30,650 nt of DNA from Prasinococcaceae sp. CCMP 1430 (lineage: Eukaryota; Prasinodermophyta; Palmophyllophyceae; Prasinococcales; Prasinococcaceae), in NCBI GenBank assembly GCA_013416795.1, contig RQSC01000025.1, positions 1 to 30,650 on the forward strand, given 5' to 3'. The first letter of the stretch is position 1. Each line of letters opens with the position of its first letter. Shown piece after piece: positions 14,310 to 17,064 of this stretch. The translations under genes and the position numbers were made by a program. The notes beneath the pieces are model-generated. The model searched no databases. It worked only from the letters and a program-made list of their open reading frames with translations, and had not been told where the DNA came from.

Positions 14310-15970
14310 ATGCTGTGGATCGAGCGCATGTGGCCACACGCGGCGCAGCGAGCGCAGCGTGCGCGCTGCAGGCCGGCCGGCGTCGTCGCTGACGCCCTCC
14401 GCGACGACAGCCGCTGCTTCAGCTCGGCGCCGCTGCGGTCCAACATGAGCAGGGAGGGCTTCCTGGACGCCATCGCGCGCGTCAGCACCCGTCTGCGGGC
14501 GAGGGCAAGGAAAAAAATCCCGCCGCGGGCGCAGGGCTCGACGTGGCTGTCGTCGGAGCCGGGCCCGCCGGGCTCGCCACGGCGCACGCTCTGCTGTCGG
14601 ACGCTGCTGGCGCCAACGTGTCGAGTGTCACCATTTTCGAGCGGCGTGAAGAGCTCGAGGATGCGGTTGGGGGAGGGATCCAACTCAACGGCGGTGCGGC
14701 CATCCTCGCTCGCCTGGGACTGCTCGACGACTCGCGAATCACCGAGGTGCTGCTGCCCTGCAAACGCGTTCGCAGCCGACTCTGCCTGCGCGGCGACCTG
14801 ACAGCGATTGACGTGGACGTGCCCGCCGCGATGACGCGATGGCCAGACGCGGCGGAGCTCGCCGCGCGGCCGGGCCGAGAGGCGCTGGCATTCTGCTCAA
14901 TGCGCGGAGCGCTGCAGGGCGCCCTCGCGGAGACGCTGCCAGAAGCTGCCACGCTACGCTTAGGTTCCAACCTCTCAAGTGCGCGCGAGAACGCCAACGG
15001 AGGTGCCACGCTCACATTTGCAGATGGTAGCGAGGAGAGCTTCGATCTCGTCGTTGGCGCCGACGGCATAGGCAGCGCTGTACGCAGGTCACTCGCGGCC
15101 GGCGCAGCCACCAACGGCAGCGCTCGTGCGCCCGAGGCTGAGTACTCGCGCATCAGGTTGCTCCTTGGGGTCACCCCCGCTGATGAGGAGCAGTCTGGCG
15201 GACGGTCCGTCCGCCCCGCGTCTGAGCGCGCGGAGATGCATCAGTGGTTTGGCGATGGCGCCTACGCCCTGCTCGCTTCGTACCGTGGCGTGGGCGGCAG
15301 GCTGTATGACCAGGTGGTGGTGTGTGAACGTGACGACACGGAACGCGAGGAGAATGCGTCGTATGAGCGTCGTGCAGGAACGCCTGAAGAGGCGCGCGAG
15401 GCGCTCATCGCATCCGCGCGGGCCGCGCGCTTGCCGAAGGAGCTGCTGGACGTAGCGATGCGCTCGGAGAGGGTCATCGAGGTCGGCGCGCACTGGCACG
15501 ACATCGGAGTCCCGTGGACCTCGCCTCTCGGCTCGATGGTCCTGCTGGGCGACGCAGCGCACGCAATGCCGCCGTTTCTGGGGCAGGGCTGCAATCAGGC
15601 GATGCAGGTGCGCGCAGGCACCCCACCGCGCGCGCGCGCTGCGGCGCGGTGCTGCTGAGCATTGCGTTCCGAGTGCCTTGAGCTGACGTCCTCCGCTTCG
15701 CTATCCGCTGCGCGCGCGCCGTGCCAGGACGCGTGGAGCCTCGCTGAATCGCTCGCTTCGGAGCAGACCCTCCTGAGTGCCACGCGGCGGTACGAGTCGT
15801 CGCGCAGGGAGGCCGTCGAGCCCGTGCTGCAGAAGAGTCGCTTCATCGGATGGCTCGAGACCCAGAGCGGCAGCCTGGGCACGCTTGCACGCGACGCCGC
15901 CCTGACCGCCGCGGGAAAGCTGGGCGTGGCAGAGTTCATCTTCGTGGACGGCGCCGTGCCGAGGGTGTAA
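14310..15970 (+). CDS. FAD-dependent monooxygenase (aromatic hydroxylase/zeaxanthin epoxidase-like superfamily), three exons proposed
   Basis: Flavoprotein hydroxylase or epoxidase; the substrate cannot be told. Exon 2 has the Rossmann motif [15 protein letters not shown], the [14 protein letters not shown] motif, and [21 protein letters not shown] (GD motif). The last intron, 15608-15727 (120 nt, donor GTGCGC), is clear: joining gives [14 protein letters not shown], the usual continuation. At the 5' end the FAD frame lacks an ATG. Splicing 14490 to 14535 (44-nt intron, donor GTCTGC) joins an upstream frame starting at ATG 14310 (or 14328, 14445), giving [12 protein letters not shown]. That leader is Arg/Ala-rich and contains RCFSSAP, which resembles a mitochondrial presequence. 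The model totals 498 aa. Confidence is high for the family, moderate for the start. Confidence 0.85.
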
Positions 15971-16139: not shown

Positions 16140-16556
16140 ATGGCGCCCAAGCGCGCGCGCCGCGCGGCCGCCACCGCCGCAGGCGGCGACGGCGAGGGCA
16201 TGGGCGCGGCCGTGCCAGACGAGGCGGACGTGGCGCGCATGCGCGAGCGCATCCTCGCGCTGGTGCGGGCGCGCGGTCCTGCCAAGTCCTGCTGACCCAG
16301 CGAGGCGCCGCGCGGTGTCTCCGCCGCGCGCGCAGAGTGGTATCCGCTCATGCCTGCCGCCCGGGAGGCCGCGCGCAGGCTGGCGAAGGAGGGGACGCTC
16401 GAGATCCTGCAAAAGGGCGCGCCCGTTGACCCAGATAGCTTCAAAGGGCCCATCAGGCTCAGAGCGCTCCCTCCCGCAGCCGTCATCGGCCGCGCAGACG
16501 ACTCGGCGCGCGGAGATGACGCCGAGGCGGCCGCCAAGCGGCAGCGCAAGCGGTGA
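16140..16556 (+). CDS. DUF3253 domain protein, candidate selenoprotein (in-frame UGA at 16293-16295)
   Basis: From ATG 16140 the frame reads 51 codons, meets TGA, then continues without another stop to TGA 16554-16556 (138 residues counting Sec52). Before the UGA is RERILALVRARGPAKSC; after it come PSEAPRG, EWYPLMPAAREAARRLAKEG, ILQKGAPVDP and FKGPIRLR. Together these form one whole DUF3253 domain (winged-helix-like, function unknown; related proteins usually show a K-T-I-C-P-S-E motif). The UGA falls exactly on the conserved Cys of CPSE. A SECIS-like hairpin follows 10 bases after the stop. Cys51 directly precedes Sec52, a potential redox pair. The N-terminus and C-terminus are basic, possibly nuclear. 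Without Sec insertion the product would be a 51-aa stub. An intron removing the UGA would also remove the conserved motif, so I judge readthrough as Sec more likely. Confidence 0.8.
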
Positions 16557-16565
16557 CACCACCGC

Positions 16566-16658
16566 GGCTCCCCCTCTTCCGACATGACGGCAGCTCGCAA
16601 AGGCACTCCTGCGGCAGGCAATGCAGCTGGCAGCCCGACGCGGGGAGGTTGGGGAGGC
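16566..16658 (+). promoter_or_regulatory. Putative form-2 SECIS element in the 3' UTR of the DUF3253 gene
   Basis: Hand folding gives all SECIS parts in register. Helix I: 16576-16580 with 16644-16648, and 16568-16573 with 16651-16656. A symmetric 4-nt internal loop follows. The non-Watson-Crick quartet is TGAC (16585-16588, within ATGA) opposite CGAC (16636-16639). Helix II: 16589-16598 with 16626-16635 (two mismatches). Unpaired AAA lies at 16599-16601, 11 nt after ATGA. An apical mini-stem CCTG/CAGG (16608-16611/16615-16618) closes a CGG loop, as in form 2. It lies about 290 nt beyond the UGA, a workable distance. Confidence 0.75.
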
Positions 16659-17064
16659 GGAGAGGGGGACCTGGAGCGGCGCGCCCCGGCACGCGCGCAT
16701 CGCCCCGCGAGCGCCGCTGGGGTCACGTTAGGGTTAGAATTCGAATAATTCAGGTATTGAGTCATGTAGGGTTTAGTCTCAACGTTGACTCGTAGGAAGA
16801 ATATCCAAAACACGGATCGTTTGCGAGTGATTCCATTTCCGTGAAAATCGAATGGGGTCTGATACGAGAGGCGCGCTGCGGCGCGCGCGCGACAATTGGC
16901 AGCGCGGAGCGCACGGCGGGGCGGCGGCGCGCGGCGCCACACGCAGCGCGGCACGGAGGAGCAGGCGGAGGTGGCCGAGGCCGAGGCCGGCAGCCGCGTA
17001 CTGCGCAGAGCTGCTGGGTCGCCAGCGGCGCCGAGAGGTCTGCGCGCGCGCCCGGACGCGGAGG
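16659..17064. other. Intergenic stretch upstream of the RetSat fusion, with telomere-like fragments
   Basis: GTTAGGGTTAG at 16726-16736 and TAGGGTTTA near 16767 resemble degenerate telomere units. The part from about 16735 to 16860 is markedly AT-richer than its surroundings and includes GGGTCTGA near 16855, the reverse complement of the TCAGACCC promoter motif at 14252. Open frames from 16852 onward are low-complexity Arg/Ala/Gly and not convincing as protein. Confidence 0.4.

Follow-up and report, generated by a model that had tools for sequence, protein, structure and literature searches.

An algal DUF3253 protein in which an in-frame UGA at the conserved cysteine position is very probably read as selenocysteine

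We analysed a 30,650-nucleotide stretch of algal DNA (the window) and found in it a gene for a 138-residue DUF3253 protein whose codon 52, a UGA, is very probably decoded as selenocysteine (Sec); this reading includes the steps proposed below and is drawn from sequence comparison. The initial annotation had described a whole DUF3253 domain broken by a single TGA, and this was confirmed: the frame (Table 1) translates as MAPKR...GPAKSC*PSEAPRG...GPIRLR...KRQRKR*, with one internal stop, at codon 52, inside the motif K-S-C-U-P-S-E (Cys at residue 51, the UGA at residue 52). The read-through product matched the PF11625 profile with 93 bits (curated cut-off 22.1 bits) over residues 33-109 and profile positions 3-80 of 81; therefore the domain is whole and unbroken across the TGA. 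A chance nonsense change would have had to strike exactly codon 52 among the ∼77 matched residues and to produce TGA instead of TAA or TAG, which we consider beyond chance. It is barely conceivable that the TGA lies within a short spliced intron, or that two short genes adjoin by chance: two of the host's GPx genes (on contigs C76 and C75) do align in two pieces and appear to be split by introns, but the family alignment of the DUF3253 product is continuous over residues 33-109, and an intron over the TGA would delete the conserved CPSE core. The ATG of MAPKR is the putative start codon; metagenome ORFs of relatives extend farther upstream, and the window does not contain that upstream part in frame. 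Four of the seven long ORFs in the window end in TGA (TAG ends two and TAA one; the ORFs are mechanical calls, of which at least 14543-15658 may end inside an intron), therefore UGA doubles as a stop in this host. The gene would thus be a recoding case of use for spacing rules, in which a short gene has one UGA as Sec and a second, just ahead of the SECIS-like element, as the stop.

Table 1. Coordinates in the window of the putative selenoprotein gene and its downstream SECIS-like element
Feature	Positions	Strand	Remarks
Putative DUF3253 selenoprotein CDS	16140..16556	+	138 residues including Sec52; TGA terminator 16554-16556
In-frame TGA, proposed Sec codon, residue 52	16293..16295	+	adjoins Cys51 (TGC 16290-16292)
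DUF3253 (PF11625) domain	16236..16466	+	predicted winged-helix fold
SECIS-like element, core	16584..16639	+	ATGAC; helix II (GGC/GCC, GCU/GGC, GC/GC, two mismatches); AAA; apical ministem; CGAC
SECIS-like element including candidate helix I	16568..16656	+	16568-16573 and 16576-16580 paired with 16644-16648 and 16651-16656; inferred structure

The position of the UGA within the family is informative. When 146 homologues were aligned (150 database proteins minus the near-identical relatives P0001, P0002, P0004 and P0143; the set was drawn from 120 proteins listed among 242 matches, with 8000 candidates scored), residue 52 corresponded to Cys in 146/146, residue 53 to Pro in 145/146 and residue 54 to Ser in 146/146. 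A smaller alignment had Cys at residue 52 in all 20 other rows, and in bacterial DUF3253 loci (80 examined, part of at least 381 confirmed) Cys was present in 75/75 sites recovered by a motif script, the site motif not being recovered in the remaining five; all these counts lean towards Cys because the Cys motif is part of the search words and of one scan pattern out of two. As residue 52 is Cys in all aligned homologues, the putative Sec stands in for the conserved Cys of DUF3253, and the earlier proposal that the UGA sits on the CPSE cysteine of the PF11625 family was borne out, with the same leaning of the search words. Furthermore, in 18 relatives with the PSExP form, which we took as algal (P0041, from Monoraphidium, is the sole named alga among them), residue 51 was Cys in 15, Ala in two and Ser in one. 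A cysteine next to the Sec site therefore appears to be a usual feature of the algal-looking branch, which includes forms such as NCCPSEVPRR.

The interruption itself is kept in relatives. Three metagenome protein clusters, P0001, P0002 and P0004 (98%, 98% and 92% identical to the query, over 37% of the query covered), stop exactly at GPAKSC. Searching with the post-UGA half alone recovered another cluster, P0143 (68 aa, 5 members, 13 contigs), whose representative is 99% identical; the longest contig is 21165 in both P0143 and P0001. Thus both halves of the gene appear to be kept in relatives with a break between them, seen at the level of proteins, where the type of stop codon is not visible. 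Because the two halves are conserved with the break at the same residue, a sequencing error (a true TGC or TGT) or a recent pseudogene derived from a Cys-type gene is a very unlikely explanation. A single change does convert TGC to TGA, and the PF11625 search of the 24.5 Mb assembly reported one match, with the TGA inside (two candidates scored), so the gene is reported in one copy; against this, three clusters of relatives end at the same residue, the post-stop half is retained across the contigs of P0143, and a SECIS-like element lies downstream of the gene.

This element, ATGAC-GGCAGCTCGC-AAAGG...GGCAGCC-CGAC, begins 27 nt past the terminator and 288 nt past the Sec codon. Elements of the form ATGAC-GGC...AA...GCC-[C/T]GAC are present in the 3' flanks of the GPx genes on C68, C3 and C75, with variants on C76 and C89. 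The genome-wide pattern ATGACGGC-N5-9-AA-N12-40-GCCYGAC, which like the SECIS rules was written after the DUF3253 element had been seen, occurred 9 times compared with 2 in the reversed control; the 9 sites belong to three GPx genes, the DUF3253 gene, a gene on C51 with the motif FDTUGHC and four others of unassigned status. A structural rule (the quartets, three basal pairs, AA at 8-13 nt and at least 7 arm pairs) recovered the elements of 5 of the 6 Sec-type GPx genes and that of the C51 gene, and it also accepted the loci L024, L019 and L025. It gave no element at L026, at the locus of the Cys-type GPx, at the Rdx locus (L007), where an energy rule found a weaker one, or at the C135 GPx gene, after which no SECIS was found (L012; 340 of the 3306 bases there are N). 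On the window the structural rule returned one plus-strand element, that of the DUF3253 gene (−14.0 kcal/mol), and one weak minus-strand match (−3.0), and its background was 1 match (−8.0) in 324,856 strand-bases from 20 other stretches. When the 626-nt flank was dinucleotide-shuffled 3000 times, 29 shuffles held any match and 8 held one at −14 or better. Thus the 3' region contains the SECIS motif and helix II against a low background, under a rule that was not blind.

Other SECIS searches varied in what they detected. Two rules (the first scan and the energy rule) overlooked the DUF3253 element, and one early rule that detected it missed the GPx elements. Rfam SECIS_1 had no match in the window or in the genome, the GPx elements being missed likewise. 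We then used a covariance model built from three equal-length GPx elements of the five, because MAFFT misplaces the 3' side when loops are unequal. With this model the DUF3253 element scored 14.4 bits (E 0.17 over 81 kb), the top score of the window (next 10.6); comparable scores were obtained for L019 (15.6) and L026 (14.9), which are pattern matches of unassigned status, and for a part of L010 that lies outside its SECIS (14.6). Over 133 nt, the fold constrained to the SECIS had −51.6 kcal/mol versus −56.0 unconstrained, so that the unconstrained fold favours another register by 4.4 kcal/mol, and the flank was not more stable than its shuffles (z 0.42). A second candidate at 16827 (GTGA...AAAA...TGAT) was rejected: it has a good stem, but the stem overruns the sites of the quartets, and folding was equally good or better in 186 of 200 shuffles. 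This candidate lies in an AT-rich patch (16700-16890) downstream of the gene, within a region of 69% GC, and no second copy of the patch was reported in the genome.

The genome that carries the gene also encodes other probable selenoproteins. A GPx search gave nine matches in seven genes; six have a TGA at the NVxx-U position, while the seventh has Cys there. In addition, a gene of the Rdx (SelT/SelW/SelH) family has a TGA within its CxxU motif, and the genome contains a match to SepSecS (E 4.2e-112) that is interrupted by a TAG and a TAA, both of which we took as introns. The host thus has SepSecS together with six GPx genes and one Rdx gene with TGA. It is highly improbable that the UGA is read by a near-cognate tRNA as programmed read-through without selenium. 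On the side of such read-through, the genome searches did not recover tRNA-Sec, selD or EFSec: RF01852 gave four sub-cut-off matches, all on contig C136 (53 of 2117 candidates scored), which ARAGORN calls Leu, Ser, Ser and Ser; two tRNA-Sec sequence patterns occurred at 2 and 3 places (0 and 2 in the reversed controls), and ARAGORN called a tRNA at none of these places; the search for selD gave no candidate; and the SelB profile had 15 matches with 0 above the cut-off. Two of the 15 SelB matches were inspected; the best one outside C136 resembles an organellar EF-Tu by eye. An incomplete assembly, or introns that split these genes, may account for the negative results. Read-through without selenium is opposed by SepSecS and the seven other genes with an in-frame UGA at Sec positions, by the placement of the UGA on a Cys column and by the SECIS-like element.

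Further observations came from the same genome. In the C68 GPx gene, the segment around the Sec site (DLGAAKGKVALVENVAGLUGTTVKDYL) is duplicated in tandem in one frame, with two in-frame TGA codons (L009 1426-1587; copies at 1426-1506 and 1507-1587), either as an assembly artefact or as a real duplication. The SECIS-pattern match on C51 (G000:C51:156922-156975; L020 with the region upstream) follows the gene with the thioredoxin-like FDTUGHC motif; this gene scored 20.4 bits against PF00085, below the cut-off of 23.5, and is likely a further selenoprotein of the same alga. On C78 (G000:C78:234118-234169, L024), a SECIS-like element with 27 bits in the GPx model follows a gene that resembles a phosphate-binding protein by eye.

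Taken with the Cys column, the break in relatives and the SECIS-like element, these Sec-decoding genes support the original proposal that residue 52 is Sec beside Cys51. The mechanism that we propose begins with two well-supported steps: the SECIS-like element, which is of the same type as those of the host's GPx genes, would recruit the shared Sec insertion machinery, and Sec would replace the Cys of C-P-S-E, giving a vicinal Cys51-Sec52 pair where 15 of the 18 algal-looking relatives have Cys-Cys. The DUF3253 domain is predicted to adopt a winged helix, matching the solved member 2ns0 (RHA04536, Rhodococcus sp.), and not a thioredoxin fold. By this prediction and the solved relative, the Cys-Sec pair would lie after the first short strand and ahead of helix 2. 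The winged helix is a frequent fold among nucleic-acid-binding proteins. A redox or metal role, as put forward in the initial annotation, is conjectural. We infer that Cys51-Sec52 may form a reversible selenenylsulfide, or bind an electrophile or a soft metal, and that this chemistry may alter how the domain binds nucleic acids or acts in repair or regulation. The idea that the pair before helix 2 uses selenium to switch nucleic-acid binding in response to redox state or electrophiles, and that the DUF3253 Cys does the same job across bacteria, is tentative and on balance doubtful.

Within the Sec reading, we regard it as unlikely that Sec is the catalytic nucleophile of a reaction that modifies or repairs DNA or RNA and not part of a binding switch. 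The invariance of the Cys in the aligned set goes, in our judgement, beyond the need of a sensor, and photolyase-like genes are present in 3 of the 80 bacterial DUF3253 loci (L033, L039 and L042), but neither catalytic partner residues nor an enzyme-like fold were seen in what is a bare predicted winged helix, and 3 of 80 loci make a link of DUF3253 to DNA repair possible but weak. The bacterial neighbourhoods (20 neighbours from 11 of the 80 loci scanned) were mostly unrelated to one another. Viral contigs contained one partial relative among 118 matching stretches, and plasmids gave two distant records.

New families of selenoproteins are seldom found, and thioredoxin-fold oxidoreductases make up many of the known ones. 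Sec at residue 52 would extend the range of selenium-bearing proteins to the winged helix and, if the switch reading is true, the protein would be a regulatory or repair selenoprotein with a fold other than thioredoxin. Moreover, Sec in a winged helix would suggest that DUF3253, a family found in both bacteria and algae, works through its conserved Cys, and therefore makes the function of the family testable. The algal protein shares with the DUF3253 Cys proteins of bacteria and algae (2ns0) the whole domain, the C/U-P-S-E motif and the winged-helix fold; it differs from them in having Sec for Cys and a SECIS-like element downstream, and it lacks the DUF2256 domain (PF10013) that many of the listed forms carry in front.

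We also compared the protein with described selenoproteins. One algal selenoprotein linked to DNA repair presumably has a helix-turn-helix part, and its Sec, we assume, replaces the catalytic acceptor Cys. In the excerpted text of PMC7539508 this protein is tied to repair; it belongs to a different family from ours. The same excerpts give 42 algal selenoprotein families, which share with our case Sec on a conserved Cys, a eukaryotic SECIS and an alga with several selenoproteins; they do not name DUF3253, and a 'Hypo' family left undescribed in them might be DUF3253. Vicinal Cys-Sec is also found in the prokaryotic CU-motif selenoproteins SaoL, MbdU and KCU-star, which in the excerpts of PMC13188914 are by name other families; this 2026 prokaryote inventory lists other DUFs, and DUF3253 is absent from its full text. 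DUF3253 is not named in the excerpts of PMC12013277 and PMC6627142, and there was no mention of DUF3253 or PF11625 in the open-access PMC literature. A search of the open PMC literature for selenoproteins and winged helices gave, by title and among the matches listed, no Sec-bearing winged helix.

Finally, one gene on a possibly chimeric contig points to a green alga as the host, and away from haptophytes and pelagophytes. The plastid psbA on contig C136 scored highest, at 320-340 bits, with PSII entries that we take in many cases to be from plants and green algae, whereas the entries that are presumably red-lineage (including diatom) or cyanobacterial scored 319 and below. As psbA is nearest to plant and green-algal entries, the haptophyte and pelagophyte context offered by the initial annotation was unsupported. 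Contig C136 (G000:C136; L002, L003 and L005) is 477 kb long and holds, besides psbA, rpl2, chlI-like and clpP-like genes (the latter two by eye) and tRNAs; the proximity of these plastid genes to GC-rich, nuclear-looking sequence reflects either a chimeric contig or a plastid insertion.
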